Position numbers and translations under genes: made by a program. Shown piece by piece: positions 1,907 to 36,400 of a stretch of DNA of 41,560 nt (within the stretch, counting starts at the first letter, position 1; every line of letters starts with the position of its first letter). This DNA comes from Rhodospirillales bacterium (GTDB lineage Bacteria > Pseudomonadota > Alphaproteobacteria > Rhodospirillales > Casp-alpha2): assembly GCA_021775105.1 (NCBI GenBank), contig JAJFIJ010000112.1, positions 1-41,560 of the forward strand. Direction: 5' to 3'. Below the pieces are notes generated by a model. It worked only from the letters and a program-made list of their open reading frames with translations. It was not told the DNA's origin and searched no databases.

Positions 1907-1999
1907 AATTGGGAGTGTTGTTGATAGCCATAGGCCGGGATTTCAGATTTTTGTGGGATTTGGCCATTGTTATTGAATATCGCTAAGCGGGATTTTTTC

Positions 2000-4579
2000 A
2001 TGAGCCAAAGTTCAATCGAATTTCTTAAAACCCGATATATCCTGGTTCTATTCGTTCTCGGATTATTGGCTCTTGCCAATTATGTTCTGCTTGATGTTGT
2101 TATCGCCAGTCAGAAAACCGGGGCGGCAGAAGTCAATATCTCCGGGCGTCAGCGAATGCTGTCGCAGCGCATAGTTCTGTTGAGTCAACAACTCTATTCC
2201 CAGAGGGACCGGGAACCAAATCCGGAAATTCTCTTGGATCTGGGTCAGGCAATTGAACTCATGCGCAAATCGCACAGGACGCTCACGCTTGGTGACGCCA
2301 GTCTGGGAGTGATGCCTCCCGCGTCCGAAGAACTGAAAACCCTGTATTTTGGCCCCCGCATGTTTGTCAATTCCGAGGTTCAGTCATTTCTGGCGATGGC
2401 CGTCGTGCAGTACAATACAGCAGCGGCGGGTATACATGAGATGCACGGCTTTGATTTTGATGTTAAAAAATTTCTTGAAAATCTCGATTCTGTGGTCAGC
2501 CAATATCAGCTTGAAAGTGAAACCAGAATCGCCAAGCTTCAGTCTTATCAGGCTACGGCATTTTTTGTCACCATACTTGTTCTGATCGGAGCCGGGCTGA
2601 TGGTTTTTCGACCGATGGTCGCACGTGTTCGGAAATACATGCTCGAACTCACCGAGGCGGAGGAAAGGTTTCGGTCGATCACTAATTCTTCCACAGTGGC
2701 AATGGTTGTCGCCGTCGATTACAGCGGGATGATTATTTTCTGGAATCCTGCCGCACAAAGAATTTTTGGATATAGTGAAAAGGAAATTCAGGGTCGCCCG
2801 TTGACCGATATCATGCCCGAACGGTATCGCGATGCGCACTGTCGGGGATTTGAACGGGCCGCACATTCAGATGACCATTCCGTGATTGGCAAAACCATTG
2901 ATGTCCACGGACTTAAAAAAGACGGAACGGAATTTCCCATTGAATTGTCTCTGGGTATGTGGCGGCAGGATGGGAAGAAATACTTCAGCGCGATTATTCA
3001 CGATATAACCAAACGCAAACGGGCAGAGACGGCGCTGAGGGAAAGTGAAGAGCGGTTTCGGTCAATTACCAAATCATCTTCAAATGCGATGATTATTGCC
3101 GTTGACCAATCGGGCGCAGTGATTTCCTGGAATCCGGCAGCGGAAAAAGCGTTCGGATACAGTGAGGCGGAAATTCTTGGCCAGCCCCTGATTGATATCA
3201 TTCCCGAACGTCATAAAACCGCCCATGAACAGGGTTTCCGACGGGCGGCAAATTCCGGAGACTATCATATTCTGGGGAAATCGGTCGAAATTCACGCGCT
3301 TCGAAGGAACGGTGAAGAGTTCCCCATAGAACTGTCGCTCGGGACCTGGAAACAGGACGACAAGAAGTATTTCAGCGCGATTATTCACGATATTACGGAT
3401 CGCAAGCAGGCGGAGGCGCAGTTGCGCGATGCCAAAGACGATGCCGAAAAAGCCAACGAGGCAAAATCAGAATTCCTTGCCAACATGAGCCACGAATTGC
3501 GAACGCCTTTGAATGCCGTTCTCGGGTTTGCCCAAATGCTTCAGTATGATCCGAACAATCCGCTTTCACCGGCACAAGGGGAAAACATCGGACACATCAT
3601 GGAGGGTGGCAACCATCTTCTGGCACTGGTCAACGATATCCTGGATCTGGCGGGCATTGAGGCTGACAAGGTAACGTTTGCCCTGGAGGACATAAACATT
3701 AACGACGTCATGGTCGATTGTGTCGCTCTGACAACACCTTTGGGAGAGCCGCGCGGCATAACAATCATTGATCAATTCAATGACGGTCTTTCGACGTTCA
3801 TCAGAACCGACCGACGACGATGCAAGCAGATATTGCTTAACCTGCTATCCAATGCGGTCAAATTCAACACCGATGGCGGAACGGTGACGGTTGCTGGTGA
3901 AGAGGCGGAACCCGGTTTTTATCGTATGTCAGTTTCTGACACCGGGGTGGGTATCGCCAAAAAAGATTATGCCGATGTTTTCCAGATATTCCATCGCCTT
4001 GGGGCCAACTCGATGGTCGCCAGGGAAGGTACGGGTATCGGTCTGGCAGTGACCAAGTTGCTTGTTGAGAGAATGGCCGGACGGATTGGATTCGAGAGTG
4101 AGAAGGGAGTTGGCAGCAACTTTTGGGTGGAATTGCCGCTGGCGTCAAATCAGGATGTTTTCATCTGGACCGACGCCCTTCGCGTTGGGGTTGATGCCAT
4201 AGACAAGGACCACCAGGTTCTCGTCTCCCTGCTAAACAAGATTGCGTGTGAACCCGCTGGCGGCGAGGAATTGGGGTCGATTATCAACGAACTGGTTGAC
4301 TATACCCGCTATCACTTCGAGCGTGAAGAAATGATCATGCAGGTCTGTGACTATCCGGCCCTGGAGGAACATTGTGGGTTGCATCGCGATATTGCTGTCC
4401 AAATGAACAACATTGCTGAACAATGGTACAAAACCCGAGACCCGGTCATCCTTCAACGACTGCGTGCACTTTTGCGCCATTGGTTGTTCGATCACGTCGT
4501 AAACGCAGATACTCAGATTTCCCAATACGCCAATGGAAAGGATCAGGCGATACGGAATTTATTGGAGCCGCTTGGATAG
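2000..4579 (+). CDS. Membrane sensor histidine kinase: PilJ-type sensor, two PAS domains, HisKA/HATPase, C-terminal hemerythrin
   Basis: Hybrid-looking sensor kinase without a receiver domain. From the ATG at 2000: membrane segment about 12-34; periplasmic PilJ-type/type IV pili MCP N-terminal domain with the hallmark SGRQRMLSQR; second membrane segment about 187-206; PAS about 222-335; a closely similar second PAS about 348-462; HisKA with phospho-acceptor His about 498 in NMSHELRTPLN; HATPase with DTGVGIA and GTGIGLAVTK; and a bacteriohemerythrin domain about 720-850 with ligands in KDHQ, YHFEREE, EEHCGLH and FDHVVNAD. A TTG at 1967 is in frame, but the ATG at 2000 opens directly onto the first membrane helix and is preferred. 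The partner response regulator is not in the window. Oxygen or redox sensing through the di-iron domain is inferred from the family. Confidence 0.92.
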   Translation: MSQSSIEFLKTRYILVLFVLGLLALANYVLLDVVIASQKTGAAEVNISGRQRMLSQRIVLLSQQLYSQRDREPNPEILLDLGQAIELMRKSHRTLTLGDASLGVMPPASEELKTLYFGPRMFVNSEVQSFLAMAVVQYNTAAAGIHEMHGFDFDVKKFLENLDSVVSQYQLESETRIAKLQSYQATAFFVTILVLIGAGLMVFRPMVARVRKYMLELTEAEERFRSITNSSTVAMVVAVDYSGMIIFWNPAAQRIFGYSEKEIQGRPLTDIMPERYRDAHCRGFERAAHSDDHSVIGKTIDVHGLKKDGTEFPIELSLGMWRQDGKKYFSAIIHDITKRKRAETALRESEERFRSITKSSSNAMIIAVDQSGAVISWNPAAEKAFGYSEAEILGQPLIDIIPERHKTAHEQGFRRAANSGDYHILGKSVEIHALRRNGEEFPIELSLGTWKQDDKKYFSAIIHDITDRKQAEAQLRDAKDDAEKANEAKSEFLANMSHELRTPLNAVLGFAQMLQYDPNNPLSPAQGENIGHIMEGGNHLLALVNDILDLAGIEADKVTFALEDININDVMVDCVALTTPLGEPRGITIIDQFNDGLSTFIRTDRRRCKQILLNLLSNAVKFNTDGGTVTVAGEEAEPGFYRMSVSDTGVGIAKKDYADVFQIFHRLGANSMVAREGTGIGLAVTKLLVERMAGRIGFESEKGVGSNFWVELPLASNQDVFIWTDALRVGVDAIDKDHQVLVSLLNKIACEPAGGEELGSIINELVDYTRYHFEREEMIMQVCDYPALEEHCGLHRDIAVQMNNIAEQWYKTRDPVILQRLRALLRHWLFDHVVNADTQISQYANGKDQAIRNLLEPLG

Positions 4580-15638: not shown

Positions 15639-16808
15639 ATGTTTGCCGTACCGGACCGTGGTTTCACCCCGTCAGAATTCGAATCCCGTATGCAGCGCGT
15701 TCAGGACCGTATGCAGGCCGGAAAAATGGATGCCATTCTGTTGACCACAGAACCCGATGTCCGTTATTTCACCGGTTTTTTGACCCAGTTCTGGGAAAGC
15801 CCGACCCGGCCGTGGTTCGTTCTGCTGCCCCTGAGCGGAAAGCCGGTCGCCGTTATTCCGGAAATCGGTGCCGCCGGAATGGTGGGCACATGGGTTGAGG
15901 ATATTCATACTTGGCCTGCCCCGAGGCCGGAAGATGACGGTATATCGTTATTGCACGATGTCATTGAAAGGCTGCCCCGGAAATTCGGATGCCTTGGTGT
16001 TTCTCTCGGGCATGAGAGTTATCTCCGTATGCCGGCGGCAGATTATCAGCGATTATTGAGCGGGTTGAGCGCCCACGAAATTACCGACGCCTCTGTCCTT
16101 CTTCATCAGCTAAGGTATGTGAAATCCGCCGCCGAGATCGAAAAAATTCACTATATTTGCGACCTCACGTCTGACGCCTTTGAAGCCCTGCCGCGATCAT
16201 TGAAAATGGGTGAAAGCGAGCGCCAGAATTGCCAGCGGTTTCGCATCGATCTTCTTGAGCGTGGTGCAGACAACTCCCCCTATCTGATTTCAGGTTCCGG
16301 ACCTGGCGGGTACGACAGTATTATCATGGGACCGACGGACCGGGTTCTTGAAGACGGCGACGTACTGATCATTGATACCGGCACCACGTTTGACGGATAT
16401 TTCTGTGACTTTGATCGCAACTTTGCTTTTGGTCATGCCGATGATGCGCTGCTGCGTGCCTACGATGTGGTTTACGCCTCAACGGATGCCGGGTTTGCCG
16501 CCGCCCGTCCCGGAGCGACGACCAGTGATGTCTGGGCAGCAATGTGGCGGGTGCTGGAGAAAGGCGGCGCGCTTGGCAACAGTGTCGGACGTCTGGGCCA
16601 CGGGCTTGGCATGCAGTTAACCGAGTGGCCGTCCAACACCCCGGACGACATGACGCCACTAGAACCGGGTGTCGTTCTGACCCTGGAACCCGGAATGGAA
16701 TTTGCGCCCGGTAAACAGATGGTACACGAAGAAAATATCGTCATTACCGAAGATGGGGCCTGCTGGTTAAGCCGCAGGGCACCTGCTGAACTCCCCGTCG
16801 TTGACTGA
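15639..16808 (+). CDS. M24-family metallohydrolase (Xaa-Pro peptidase/creatinase type)
   Basis: 389 residues with the creatinase N-terminal domain (DAILLTTEPDVRYFTGF) and a pita-bread catalytic domain. Metal ligands: Asp in IIDTGTTFDGYF, Asp in CDFDRNF, His in GRLGHGLGMQLTEW, Glu in LTLEPGM and Glu in VHEENIVI. Ectoine hydrolase (DoeA/EutD) belongs to the same superfamily, but this sequence lacks the DoeA-type N-terminal region, so I do not assign it to ectoine. GGAG lies 9 nt before the ATG. Last gene of the island; it converges on another M24 gene. Confidence 0.87.
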   Translation: MFAVPDRGFTPSEFESRMQRVQDRMQAGKMDAILLTTEPDVRYFTGFLTQFWESPTRPWFVLLPLSGKPVAVIPEIGAAGMVGTWVEDIHTWPAPRPEDDGISLLHDVIERLPRKFGCLGVSLGHESYLRMPAADYQRLLSGLSAHEITDASVLLHQLRYVKSAAEIEKIHYICDLTSDAFEALPRSLKMGESERQNCQRFRIDLLERGADNSPYLISGSGPGGYDSIIMGPTDRVLEDGDVLIIDTGTTFDGYFCDFDRNFAFGHADDALLRAYDVVYASTDAGFAAARPGATTSDVWAAMWRVLEKGGALGNSVGRLGHGLGMQLTEWPSNTPDDMTPLEPGVVLTLEPGMEFAPGKQMVHEENIVITEDGACWLSRRAPAELPVVD

Positions 16809-16852: not shown

Positions 16853-18661
16853 TCAATTTAACGGTTCAGTCGCCTGGGTAATCCACTTCGATGTTTCATC
16901 ATCGACCAGAGAACCGATTTGATCACGGACGTGTTGGTGGTAGGCGTTAACCCAGGCGAGTTCTCCGGCGTTCAGCAGCTCTGTGTTGATAACGTTGCGG
17001 TCAAACGGGGCCAGCGTCAGGGTTTCAAACTCCAGCATTTCCTTCCCTGTATCCGCTCCGGCATCTGATGTTGTGACGGCAACCAGATTTTCGATCCTGA
17101 TTCCGTAGGCATCGGTTTTGTAATAACCGGGCTCGTTAGAGATGATCATACCGGGCAGCAGGGCGACAGAATTGGGCATTTTTGAAATGCGTTGCGGGCC
17201 TTCATGGACGGAGAGATACGCACCGACGCCGTGGCCGGTGCCGTGATCGTAATCGAGACCTGCCTGCCAAAGCGGCATGCGGGCGAGGGTATCGAGTTGC
17301 GAGCCGGTCGTGCCTATTGGAAATCTCGCGGTTGCCAGGGCGATATGACCTTTAAGAACCCGGGTGAAATTGTCGCGCATCTCCGGGCTTGGCGTGCCAA
17401 TGGCGATGGTCCGGGTAATGTCCGTCGTGCCATCAAGATATTGCCCGCCGGAATCGACAAGCAGCAGGGAGTCCGGATCAAGTCGTCGGTTGGTTTTTTT
17501 GGAAACCCGGTAATGAACGATCGCGCCGTTCGGCCCGGATCCGGATATGGTTGGAAAACTGAGCCCCCGAAAATGTTCGTTTTCGGAACGCATTTTTTCC
17601 AGATACGCGCCAATCGAGATTTCGCTTTCCTGCCCGGTCGGAGCCGCTTTGGATAACCATGCAAGAAACCGGCAAACGGCAACACCATCACGTACATGGG
17701 CCGCACGAATGCCATCAAGCTCAACCTGATTTTTCTGTGCCTTGGCCAGTTGGCAGGGGTCTTCGCCTTTCGCAATGGTGGCTCCGCCCGCTTTCAGACG
17801 CAGGTAAATCCAGTTCGGGGTATCCACCGGGTTCAAGTGAACCGTTTTGTCGTCTTCTGCCAATTGGTCGAGGTGATCTCCCAATTGGTCCGGCTGATGA
17901 AGCCGCACGGCATCACCCAGAAGTTCAGCCAGACCATCGACCGGTTTGCGGGCATCGACAAACCAGTCGACGGTAGCATCCGCATGAAGCACGGCAAAGG
18001 ACAGGGTGAACGGTGTAAAGGGAACATCGCTGCCGCGAATGTTGAGCAGCCAGGCGATTGAATCAGGTGCCGAAAGGATCAGGGCACCGATCTCCTGATC
18101 GCTCAGGTCTTTTGCGATCCGGCGACGTTTGTCTGTCGACGTTTGTCCGGCAAAGTCATCGGGTTGAGCAACAGCTGGAGACAGCGGCGCATCGGGCTGA
18201 TCAGGCCAGACAGTATCGATCGGGTTGTTGTCGAGAGCGACCAGTTCAGCGCCTGCCTTGTCGCAGGCCGCTTGCAGGCGCGAAATCTGGGTTGGCGTAT
18301 GTAGCCAGGGGTCATACGCAAGGCGTTGACCGTCTGTCATGTGTGCTGAAATCCAGTCCGTCTGCGGCTCGCTGGTCAGGTGGCGGGGCTCGAACAGCTC
18401 GACATCCACTTCGTCTCTGGCTTGCAGGGTATAGCGACCGTCAACGAATATGGCTGCACGTTCCGCCAATACGATGGCCGATCCGGCGGAGCCGGAAAAA
18501 CCGGTCAGCCATTGCAGGCGTTCCGAACGCGCAGCGACGTACTCTCCCTGATGCTCGTCGGCTTTGGGGATTACAAATCCATCTAATTTCTGACTGGAAA
18601 GCTCGCGTCGTAAATCGGCCAGACGGGCTTTGTCGGGGGGCTCTGAAGAAGGGCTGGTCAT
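16853..18661 (-). CDS. Aminopeptidase P family protein (Xaa-Pro aminopeptidase, M24B)
   Basis: 602 residues, the long three-domain form common in alphaproteobacteria and eukaryotic cytosol. Two creatinase-type N-terminal domains precede the catalytic domain. Ligand motifs: LLVDSGGQYLDGTTDITRT (two Asp), YDHGTGHGVGAYLSVHEGP (His), SNEPGYY (Glu) and GIRIENLV (Glu). Removes N-terminal residues before proline; cytoplasmic. No signal peptide. It is a stand-alone minus-strand gene, tail to tail with the M24 gene of the catabolic island, and is probably housekeeping. Confidence 0.93.
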   Translation of the reverse strand: MTSPSSEPPDKARLADLRRELSSQKLDGFVIPKADEHQGEYVAARSERLQWLTGFSGSAGSAIVLAERAAIFVDGRYTLQARDEVDVELFEPRHLTSEPQTDWISAHMTDGQRLAYDPWLHTPTQISRLQAACDKAGAELVALDNNPIDTVWPDQPDAPLSPAVAQPDDFAGQTSTDKRRRIAKDLSDQEIGALILSAPDSIAWLLNIRGSDVPFTPFTLSFAVLHADATVDWFVDARKPVDGLAELLGDAVRLHQPDQLGDHLDQLAEDDKTVHLNPVDTPNWIYLRLKAGGATIAKGEDPCQLAKAQKNQVELDGIRAAHVRDGVAVCRFLAWLSKAAPTGQESEISIGAYLEKMRSENEHFRGLSFPTISGSGPNGAIVHYRVSKKTNRRLDPDSLLLVDSGGQYLDGTTDITRTIAIGTPSPEMRDNFTRVLKGHIALATARFPIGTTGSQLDTLARMPLWQAGLDYDHGTGHGVGAYLSVHEGPQRISKMPNSVALLPGMIISNEPGYYKTDAYGIRIENLVAVTTSDAGADTGKEMLEFETLTLAPFDRNVINTELLNAGELAWVNAYHQHVRDQIGSLVDDETSKWITQATEPLN

Positions 18662-32846: not shown

Positions 32847-32902
32847 AAACACCTGAATTTTGACGGCACTGGCTGTCATGAGACGTAACAGGAGAATAAG
32901 AC

Positions 32903-35900
32903 TTGGCGCAGGTATCACCGGTTTCGCAACAGATTTGGGACATGAAATACCGCCTGAAGACGCAGGATGGTATCCCTGTCGACAAATCGATTGCCGACAG
33001 CTGGCGGCGGGTCGCCCGCGCGCTGGCCCAGCCGGAACAGGACGCAGCGCACTGGGAGCAACGGTTCTTTGAGGCGCTGGATGATTTCCGTTTTTTACCG
33101 GCGGGCCGGATTTTGGCCGGTGCCGGTGCCGAGCGGCAGGTGACGCTGTTTAACTGTTTTGTTATGGGTGATATCCCGGATGACATGGCGGGCATTTTCG
33201 ACAGTCTGAAAGAAGCCGCCCTGACCATGCAGCAAGGTGGCGGCATCGGCTATGATTTCTCGACGCTCCGCCCGAAAGGGGCACGTGTTTACAAGGTCGG
33301 CGCCGATGCGTCGGGGCCATTGTCATTTATGGATGTCTGGGATTCCATGTGCCGCACGATCATGAGTGCCGGGTCGCGGCGCGGCGCGATGATGGCGGTG
33401 ATGCGGTGTGATCACCCAGATATTCTTGATTTCATTGAGGCCAAGCAGGAAGCCGGGCGCCTGCGCATGTTCAATTTGTCGGTTCTGGTGACGGACGCCT
33501 TCATGCAGGCGGTCAAGGAAGATGCGGCCTGGGAATTGCAATTTGACGGGGTGACTTACCGGAGCCTGCCGGCGCGGGAAATCTGGGACAAGATCATGCA
33601 GGCAACCTATGCCTATGCTGAACCCGGTGTCATTTTCATTGATCGCATCAACGCCAAAAACAACCTGCATTACTGTGAAACCATTCACGGCACCAATCCC
33701 TGCGTAACGGAGGATACCTGGGTAATGACCGGCGATGGGCCAAGGCAGGTGCATCAATTACTGGGGAAATCTTTTGATGCGCTGGTTAACGGGCAATTGC
33801 ACAAATCTACCAGCGCCGGGTTTTTCAAGACCGGGGAAAAACAGGTGTTTTGTCTTACTGCCAGCGAAGGGCAAAAACTGAAATTGACAGCGGATCATCC
33901 GGTGCGGCGTGTTGTCCGAAAAACCCGTAAGTCATTGGAAACGGAATGGACCCCTGCCGGTGAAATCAATGTGGGCGATATGATCATGATTCATGATCAT
34001 CGTTCGGAGGCCGGATGGGCAGGAGACTATACCCGCGAACAAGGGTATTTGATGGGCCTGCTTATCGGTGACGGTACGCTGAAGCAGGACAAAGCCGTTC
34101 TCTCCGTCTGGCCCGGTCAACTGGCGGGAAATGGCGGGAGCTGCATATCTGGTGTTTCAGGTGTGATGAATGAAGCCGAAATGGCGGCCCGCCATCTTGA
34201 TCATAGAAGCGATTTTGCCGGCTGGCTTGAGGTGCCGGGGCGTGGCGAATATCGCCTGTCAACCGGGGCAATCAAAAAGCTGGCGCTTGAACTCGGTATG
34301 CTGCCGGGCAACAAGTCAATCACGGCAAAAACCGAAAATGCATCAAGCGAGTTTTCGATAGGGTTTTTGCGCGGTTTTTTTGATGCCGATGGTTCGGTTC
34401 AGGGATCGCAGGAAAAGGGTGTAAGTATTCGCCTCAGCCAAAGTGACCTTGAACGTCTTCAGGCTGTCCAGCGTATGTTGGCACGGCTCGGAATCATCTC
34501 CGTCATCTATCAGGAACGGCGGAGTGCAGGTAAACGTTTGTTGCCGGATGGTAAAGGTGGGGCGGCCCTTTATCCAACAAAAGCGTCCCACGAACTGGTT
34601 ATTGCCAATGAAAATGTCGGGCGTTATGCAGAATATATCGGTTTCGCCGATACAGAAAAATCTACCCGGCTGAAAGTGTTGCTGTCGTCCTACAAGCGCC
34701 CGCCCAATCGAGAGCGGTTCACTGTCGTTGTGTCAGAGATCGAATGTCTGGGCGTCGAGCCGGTCTTTGATGTTCAGGTTCCCGGCGTCAATGCCTTCGA
34801 TGCCAATGGATTTTATGTTCATAACTGCGGAGAACAGCCGTTGCCGCCCTACGGGGCGTGCCTGCTGGCGTCGGTCAATCTGGCCAGACTGGTCAATGAT
34901 CCGTTTACGCCTGAAGCGGCGCTTGATCTGGATGAGCTTGATCATCTGGTAACGACCGCCGTTCGCATGATGGACAACGTCATTGATGTATCGAACTTCC
35001 CGCTTGATGAACAGCGTCAGGAAGCGGAAGCCAAACGGCGCATCGGTCTCGGTATTACCGGGCTTGCCGATGCGCTGATCATGTGTGAAGCGCGCTACGG
35101 GGGTGCACGGGCGGTTGAATTGACGGAAAGTTGGATGTCCCGACTGGAGCGTGCGGCTTATCTGGCATCTATCGACCTCGCCCGGGAGAAAGGTTCTTTC
35201 CCGTTGTTCGACCGGGAAAAGTTCCTCGAAGGTGAAACCGTTCGGGGACTTGATCAGGATATCCGCGATGGCATCGCCGAACATGGTATCCGCAACGCGT
35301 TGCTGACCTCCGTCGCTCCGACAGGCACGATTTCCCTGTTTGCCGACAACGTTTCTTCGGGGCTGGAGCCGGTATTCAGCTTCAAATATTCGCGCCACTT
35401 GCTGATGCCGGACGGTACGCGCCGCGAAGAGGATGTCACGGACTACGCCTACCGTCTGTACCGTCGCCTGAAGGGCGAAGACACCCCCCTGACGGATGCC
35501 TTTGTCGATGCCCAGGGCCTCAGCCCGAACGATCATCTGGTGATGCAGGCGGTGGTGCAGAAACATATCGACAGTTCCATTTCGAAAACGATCAACGTTC
35601 CGGAGCAGATCTCGTTTGACAGTTTCAAGGACATCTACATGCAGGCCTACGATCTTGGCTGCAAGGGCTGCACGACTTATCGACCGAACGATGTCACCGG
35701 CGCGGTTCTGGAAGTTAAAGGCAAAACCAGACAACAGATTGCCGAACCGGAATTGCCGCTTGAAGCCCCGTCGGTGACGACAATGCCAAAGGATCAGGGC
35801 GATTCGGGGGCTGTCGTGCAGATGTTCCGCCCGCTTGACCGTCCCGGCGATCTGCAAGGCAAGACGTACAAGATCCAGTGGCCGGACAGCGATCATGCGA

Positions 35901-36400
35901 TGTATATCACGCTGAATGATATTCTTGATGATTCCGGACGTATTCGCCCGTTCGAGATATTTATCAACTCGAAAAACATGGAACATTTCGCCTGGACGGT
36001 GGCGCTGACACGTATGATTTCCGCTGTTTTTCGCCGCGGCGGCGATGTTTCGTTTGTTGTTGAAGAGCTGAAAGCCGTGTTTGATCCGCGTGGCGGGCAG
36101 TGGATGAAAGGACGCTACGTTCCGTCCTTGCTGGCGGCAATCGGCGAAGTTATCGAGCAGCACATGATCAGTGTCGGGTTTCTCAAGGCGCCGGGACAAC
36201 TGGCGGATGGCGAACACCCCCAGCGCGCCATTGTTAACATGGGCAATCCGCATGTCGATGATGTCGCAGACACCGAGCAAACCGGCCCGAAATCGTCAGG
36301 CCCCGGTTTCCGGCAATGTCCCAAATGCGCCCAGCTATCGCTCATACGTCAGGAAGGTTGCGACAGCTGCACCAGCTGTGGTTACTCGAAATGCGGATAA
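32903..36400 (+). CDS. nrdJ: Adenosylcobalamin-dependent (class II) ribonucleotide reductase NrdJ, containing an intein
   Basis: Makes deoxyribonucleotides using a B12-generated thiyl radical, independent of O2. 1165 residues before splicing, about 790 after removal of the 375-residue intein (residues 267-641). Extein features: first redox Cys in TLFNCFVMGD (about 85), active-site NPCGEQPLPP restored only by splicing, GITGLADALIM, APTGTISLFADN, and a C-terminal zinc-ribbon-like CPKCAQL...CDSCTSCGYSKCG with the shuttle cysteines. The start is TTG 32903 with AGGAG (32890-32894) 8 nt upstream; the next ATG (32942) lacks such a site. Own promoter and possible DnaA/palindromic control upstream. 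A VOC gene follows at 11 nt. Confidence 0.95.
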   Translation: MAQVSPVSQQIWDMKYRLKTQDGIPVDKSIADSWRRVARALAQPEQDAAHWEQRFFEALDDFRFLPAGRILAGAGAERQVTLFNCFVMGDIPDDMAGIFDSLKEAALTMQQGGGIGYDFSTLRPKGARVYKVGADASGPLSFMDVWDSMCRTIMSAGSRRGAMMAVMRCDHPDILDFIEAKQEAGRLRMFNLSVLVTDAFMQAVKEDAAWELQFDGVTYRSLPAREIWDKIMQATYAYAEPGVIFIDRINAKNNLHYCETIHGTNPCVTEDTWVMTGDGPRQVHQLLGKSFDALVNGQLHKSTSAGFFKTGEKQVFCLTASEGQKLKLTADHPVRRVVRKTRKSLETEWTPAGEINVGDMIMIHDHRSEAGWAGDYTREQGYLMGLLIGDGTLKQDKAVLSVWPGQLAGNGGSCISGVSGVMNEAEMAARHLDHRSDFAGWLEVPGRGEYRLSTGAIKKLALELGMLPGNKSITAKTENASSEFSIGFLRGFFDADGSVQGSQEKGVSIRLSQSDLERLQAVQRMLARLGIISVIYQERRSAGKRLLPDGKGGAALYPTKASHELVIANENVGRYAEYIGFADTEKSTRLKVLLSSYKRPPNRERFTVVVSEIECLGVEPVFDVQVPGVNAFDANGFYVHNCGEQPLPPYGACLLASVNLARLVNDPFTPEAALDLDELDHLVTTAVRMMDNVIDVSNFPLDEQRQEAEAKRRIGLGITGLADALIMCEARYGGARAVELTESWMSRLERAAYLASIDLAREKGSFPLFDREKFLEGETVRGLDQDIRDGIAEHGIRNALLTSVAPTGTISLFADNVSSGLEPVFSFKYSRHLLMPDGTRREEDVTDYAYRLYRRLKGEDTPLTDAFVDAQGLSPNDHLVMQAVVQKHIDSSISKTINVPEQISFDSFKDIYMQAYDLGCKGCTTYRPNDVTGAVLEVKGKTRQQIAEPELPLEAPSVTTMPKDQGDSGAVVQMFRPLDRPGDLQGKTYKIQWPDSDHAMYITLNDILDDSGRIRPFEIFINSKNMEHFAWTVALTRMISAVFRRGGDVSFVVEELKAVFDPRGGQWMKGRYVPSLLAAIGEVIEQHMISVGFLKAPGQLADGEHPQRAIVNMGNPHVDDVADTEQTGPKSSGPGFRQCPKCAQLSLIRQEGCDSCTSCGYSKCG
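33701..34825 (+). mobile_element. LAGLIDADG-endonuclease intein in nrdJ
   Basis: 375-residue in-frame protein intron. First residue Cys in CVTEDTWVMTGDGPRQV; block B Thr-x-x-His in LKLTADHPVRR; two dodecapeptide endonuclease motifs, LMGLLIGDGTL and FLRGFFDADGSVQG; block F/G VFDVQVPGVNAFDANG then FYVHN; +1 extein residue Cys. This is a complete class 1 set (Cys1, penultimate His, Asn, Cys+1), so splicing should work. Both acidic DOD residues are visible, so the homing endonuclease may be active. Insertion is between NP and CGEQ of the RNR active site. Confidence 0.94.

Follow-up and report, generated by a model that had tools for sequence, protein, structure and literature searches.

Inteins that sit at the catalytic sites of their hosts, ribonucleotide reductases included, are a known pattern (sampled parts of PMC5874633 and PMC8772380). 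The closest described system is the rir1-b allele, which the sampled text of PMC4071816 defines with 15 copies from Halobacteria, 55 from Bacteria and 5 from other Euryarchaeota, and for which wide horizontal spread is described. Its species include Halomonas anticariensis, through which the allele shares host enzyme and insertion site with the locus presented here. The sampled species table of that paper marks no alphaproteobacterium, whereas the present copy is alphaproteobacterial, and a discussion of the thiyl cysteine was not found in its sampled text.

Other reductase inteins are more distant. The Aquifex aeolicus R2 intein, also of LAGLIDADG type and also placed at reductase catalytic residues, spliced when expressed, but it interrupts the small subunit between iron ligands and was proposed to aid iron loading (PMC8772380, sampled part). 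The NrdJ-1 intein, with its nrdJ-derived name, has the same splicing fold as the model of the present intein (8ubs, Z 19.1), yet it is split and ultra-fast, its +1 residue has to be Ser, and Pro at -1 impairs it (PMC13123727, sampled part). Class Ib reductases (phage SPBc2, a Miltoncostaea plasmid, an uncultured phage record) carry distant inteins before the equivalent cysteine (SNL/C; the slash marks the junction). Among them, the 385-aa SPbeta BnrdE intein (NC_001884) resembles the present one in lying directly before that cysteine, at SNL/CSE, and differs from it in its sequence (about 23% identity), in Leu at -1, in its class Ib host and in a gene that has a group I intron as well. The Miltoncostaea oceani plasmid gene (764-4642 of locus L062), a class Ib NrdE, apparently holds two inteins, a short one at VS/C...HN/CF and an endonuclease-bearing one at SNL/CSE. 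Mth RIR1, an archaeal reductase mini-intein without an endonuclease, has a natural Pro(-1) like the present intein, to which it is likened by description; Evans, Benner and Xu are said to have found in 1999 that replacing the proline relieved its poor splicing in E. coli.

Against this background, the locus described below is best explained (probability about 0.93) as a rir1-b intein of full length and probable activity, one of a widespread allele, residing in a class II reductase. Its anatomy, insertion site, family and patchy occurrence are shown below, as is selection in relatives, and from these we infer splicing and cleavage in this organism.

The interrupted reductase gene

The window, i.e., the whole stretch of 41,560 nucleotides of Rhodospirillales DNA that was analysed, contains an nrdJ gene with an intein in frame (Table 1). 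Its TTG codon is the first start past an in-frame stop at 32897, and the 1165 codons form a single continuous frame free of stops. The reductase barrel, Intein_splicing and LAGLIDADG_3 profiles all score above their cut-offs in this frame (Pfam, NCBIfam), and the NrdJ_Z profile (TIGR02504) reaches 552 bits against a cut-off of 399.95, which assigns the host to the class II reductases; the C-terminal Cys-rich tail of the host, CTSCGYSKCG, is present. The G+C content of the intein (52.4%, third positions 53.1%) is lower than that of the exteins (56.9% and 66.1%), which is consistent with a foreign origin and is no proof of one.

Table 1. Features of the interrupted nrdJ gene, in window coordinates.
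Feature	Position	Strand	Basis or remark
nrdJ precursor gene for a class II (B12-dependent) ribonucleotide reductase, interrupted by an intein	32903..36400	+	1165 aa, TTG start
Intein, class 1, with LAGLIDADG endonuclease, 375 aa	33701..34825	+	motifs, profiles, model, shared junction
Asn(-2)-Pro(-1), N-extein side of splice site	33695..33700	+	Pro(-1) invariant in parsed relatives
Cys1, first splicing nucleophile	33701..33703	+	invariant in alignments A1 and A3
Block B TADH, intein residues 63-66	33887..33898	+	T63 and H66 invariant in A1
Endonuclease motif 1 GLLIGDGTL, intein residues 119-127	34055..34081	+	sequence, alignment A1
Endonuclease motif 2 GFFDADGSV, intein residues 225-233	34373..34399	+	sequence, PF14528, A1
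His374-Asn375, C-terminal cleavage residues	34820..34825	+	sequence, alignment A1
Cys+1 codon TGC, catalytic thiyl cysteine, spliced residue 267	34826..34828	+	alignment to 1xje

Elsewhere in the window, a chemotaxis receptor (35-1906; NIT, HAMP and MCP domains) ends in a hemerythrin domain, and so does the PAS histidine kinase of the adjoining gene (1967-4579). Two M24 peptidases of creatinase/prolidase type lie end to end on opposite strands (15639-16808, plus; 16853-18661, minus).

Anatomy and class of the intein

An intein in this class II reductase gene is confirmed, far beyond chance. The sequence-only reading had placed it at 33692-34837; it does lie within that interval, the true extent being 33701-34825 and the rest flanking codons. 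The proposed split between NP and CGEQPL was exact (NP/CGEQ), the Cys1, His-Asn and Cys+1 residues and both endonuclease motifs were all found whole, as that reading had them, and the joined exteins computed from the boundaries give the 790-residue protein that it had predicted.

Three alignments were made: A1 with 19 whole inteins of the order, A2 with 25 of 30 suitable genome loci and A3 with 63 of 80 genome loci. In A1, block F D357 and C376 (+1) are invariant together with Cys1, T63, H66, H374 and N375. A class 1 intein is recognised by Cys, Ser or Thr at position 1, by T-x-x-H in block B and Asp in block F, by its penultimate His and terminal Asn and by a nucleophile at +1, all of which are present here; class 3 inteins have no nucleophile at position 1, where Cys1 is present here, and split inteins lie on two separate genes, whereas this one is read from one continuous frame. 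The endonuclease is of the LAGLIDADG homing type, as indicated by two motifs with acidic residues, by PF14528 (83.7 bits against a cut-off of 22.5) and by the fold.

The AlphaFold model of the intein (64 sequences) has a mean pLDDT of 92.6, and its top structural match is the endonuclease-bearing TliVMA intein (Z 26.8 over 318 residues); PI-PfuI and I-DmoI are also matched, and the splicing part matches DnaB mini-inteins with Z about 20. In the model of the full precursor (pLDDT 72.1), values drop below 50 at 260-266 and 629-652, that is, at both splice junctions, so that no geometry was read from it.

Insertion at the radical cysteine

That the splicing nucleophile Cys+1 would be the thiyl-radical cysteine of the reductase had been the central claim of the sequence-only reading, and an alignment that placed the radical cysteine elsewhere was to count against it. 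The spliced protein aligns with Thermotoga maritima NrdJ (PDB 1xje, E 1.3e-81) with TNPCGE on TNPCGE, which places Cys+1 on C322 and so bears the claim out; counted along the same alignment row, the Asn falls on N320 and the Glu on E324. Host C85 is matched by C134 and host C278 by C333. In this enzyme family, C322 of T. maritima is established as the thiyl cysteine, with C134 and C333 as the redox pair. The ranges of the alignment to E. coli R1 start at 259 and 431, and Cys+1 would fall on C439 if that stretch is ungapped. It can be soundly inferred that the reductase is inactive before splicing. In partial coverage of the literature, no publication was found that points out the identity of Cys+1 with the thiyl cysteine or the proline at -1 of reductase inteins, which is a weak negative.

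The following course of events would fit the locus. Translation would yield an inactive 1165-aa precursor, from which the intein would excise itself by an N-S acyl shift on Cys1, transfer to Cys+1, cyclisation of Asn375 and an S-N shift, leaving a 790-aa enzyme in which the newly joined Cys267 would act as the thiyl-radical residue. The LAGLIDADG domain would cut empty nrdJ alleles at TNP/CGEQ and so spread the intein between strains and lineages. By using the most constrained residue as its site, it would have a nearly invariant target, and inexact loss would be costly to the gene.

Distribution and assignment to rir1-b

The survey of empty sites in relatives that had been proposed shows the insertion to be patchy. 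Among 317 genomes of the order, 23 (in 21 of 115 genera) carry the intein, 208 carry the uninterrupted site pattern and 86 have neither, and no genome belongs to both the intein-bearing and the empty-pattern set. Within the family of the window genome the figures are 3, 39 (uninterrupted TNPC[GA]EQP pattern in DNA) and 6 of 48. Nineteen of the 24 loci of the order could be read as whole inteins, the remaining five being contig-end pieces or the divergent copy of G111. In two members of the order, G110 and G111, the intein lies in an nrdJ visibly different past the junction (CGEQPLPPNG and CGEVPGPANG, respectively). The G111 intein (L057) is 44% identical, and the NrdJ-like gene that it interrupts at this very site is unusual (CGEVPGPANGVCC); upstream, the reading frames are broken and the sequence contains a stretch of N.

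At least 535 related stretches are present in genome contigs, and the best 80, which are the top-scoring ones, all have Cys1, HN and the junction TNP/C[GA]EQ; since they were chosen by score, near relatives are favoured among them. Most belong to alpha-, beta- and gammaproteobacteria; a few bear the names of other groups, two of them being labelled Chloroflexota (L085, L133). Of 54 loci in uncultured viral contigs, 28 could be parsed with the same NP/C-x-E site, the other 26 being fragments, other frames or other junctions; one viral copy (L165) has GN in place of HN at the intein site, and L188 and L190 are chance junctions.

The assignment to rir1-b follows from the genome of Halomonas anticariensis (L121). 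Of its two large-subunit genes, one is continuous and the other holds this intein at the window's site. As this is its only interrupted reductase and the species is listed for rir1-b, the site is that of rir1-b. The present intein immediately precedes the catalytic Cys of N-x-C-x-E, and its kinship to the allele is drawn through that one listed species, whose L121 intein is 57.9% identical to it over 375 residues. Judged from these comparisons, the insertion site was known before, as that of the catalogued rir1-b allele, common to hundreds of bacterial loci.

Mobility

The sequence-only reading had raised the possibility that the intein is mobile, which is likely in view of the patchy occupied and empty sites, the conflicting trees and the purifying selection on the endonuclease of relatives. 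Intein and extein trees reject each other (p-AU 7e-50 and 1e-83; 88 rows, left from 99 after removal of 7 with short exteins and 4 identical copies). Over ten loci, identity to the window intein stays flat at 58-64% while extein identity ranges from 80% in the same family to 39-40% in the copies labelled Chloroflexota. The inteins of these two, L133 and L085, are 58-60% identical to that of the window, pointing to a probable spread between phyla. The intein tree groups beta- and gammaproteobacterial copies; such class structure suggests that much of the spread took place within classes. For the three inteins of the same family, separate acquisitions were considered and are unproved, since a single clade was not rejected (p-AU 0.225).

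Median dN/dS was 0.108 for the endonuclease, 0.123 for the splicing part and 0.118 for the extein, taken from 91 of 96 close pairs of relatives that are not independent of each other and that exclude the window copy, whose nearest intein is 64% identical, no closer relative having been found. As estimated from these ratios, the endonuclease in relatives is under purifying selection, with constraint as strong as that on the host enzyme. In the relative G174 both endonuclease motifs are gone and the splicing ends persist, a decay of the kind that the homing cycle predicts.

Proline at the splice junction

Pro(-1) occurs in all 127 parsed copies (19/19 from the order, 80/80 from genomes, the best of at least 535, and 28/28 viral), a total that counts four copies twice, because identical sequences stand in both the order and the genome set, and that comes from a junction parser favouring NP upstream, through which junctions without NP could still pass. 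In other inteins, Pro at -1 is reported in the sampled sources to compromise or block the first splicing step. Its invariance could therefore be seen as a sign that the intein serves as a regulatory switch, in which slow or conditional splicing, due to Pro(-1) or to a Cys1-Cys+1 disulfide, would tune NrdJ activity to redox state or stress; a disulfide of this kind inhibits the PolII intein of P. abyssi (PMC5874633, sampled part). No regulatory reason is needed for the proline, however, because it is supplied by the host motif NPC, with Pro in 27 of 27 parsed empty alleles, and the patchy presence of the intein speaks against a general benefit to the host. The cysteines of the window intein are at 1, 51, 148 and 349, and in A1 only Cys1 is in an invariant column, none of the other three being even nearly invariant. 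The host Cys at -9 is kept in all 27 parsed empty alleles and is thus not an adaptation to the intein. The redox form of the switch, which the sequence-only reading had raised as a possibility, gained no support and was set aside on these two grounds, which leave to it the generic Cys1-Cys+1 disulfide that may form in any such intein. On balance, a regulatory role is improbable, and a mobile element of the rir1-b allele, taking its proline from the host, is preferred.

Is splicing needed?

The sequence-only reading had further claimed that inexact removal of the intein would cost the cell its DNA synthesis. In the window genome this claim is not supported, as a second class II reductase, an open frame of 1227 aa whose NASNPCSEYMF site is uninterrupted, lies on another contig (C100); essentiality of the interrupted gene was rejected there on this ground. 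A similar second gene is present in most of the family members listed, which makes contamination unlikely as its source. Neither NrdB nor NrdD was found in the window genome.

The uninterrupted second gene also opens the way to regarding the insertion as dead or dying, with splicing lost and the cell living on the second enzyme, and the decayed endonuclease of G174 would agree with this. The window gene itself argues otherwise: its 1165 codons are free of stops, all splicing and endonuclease motifs and the host catalytic cysteines are intact, and its exteins are as much as 82% identical to those of intein-free relatives. Loss of splicing is accordingly rated even lower than a regulatory switch. 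The idea that assembly or binning joined an intein gene to foreign flanks, suggested by 389 contigs and 5.3% contamination, can practically be dismissed, as the continuous frame lies amid ordinary chromosomal genes, the extein is closest to those of same-family genomes and the same structure recurs across many unrelated assemblies, cultured isolates among them.

The reading as a full-length rir1-b intein that probably splices gains from relatives less well provided with reductases. A further PF02867 gene was present in 46 of the 51 intein-bearing genomes examined; the five without one were the uncultured G159 (65% complete), G342, G343 and G344 and the cultured Halospina denitrificans (G322). 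The latter has one PF02867 gene, which bears an intein 58% identical to that of the window, and NrdD, NrdB and an RTPR-type gene were all not found in its genome. As the sole reductase found carries the intein, splicing should work in this species, the DNA synthesis of which appears to depend on exact intein removal if the draft is complete.

Invariant Pro(-1), taken together with this sole reductase, implies that a splicing path tolerant of the proline should exist in nature, which is likely as far as the sequences tell. It may be that this class 1 family has solved splicing after an obligatory Pro(-1), via host folding or a distinct geometry of the N-terminal active site, and possibly the proline limits the rate of reductase maturation, so as to form a post-translational brake on deoxynucleotide supply where the reductase is the only one; this proposal is doubtful as a whole, and the brake is speculation. 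A Pro(-1)-tolerant intein, if real, would be a tool for ligation after proline. The intein of the window is a clean example of an element that has settled at the residue its host enzyme can least afford to lose.
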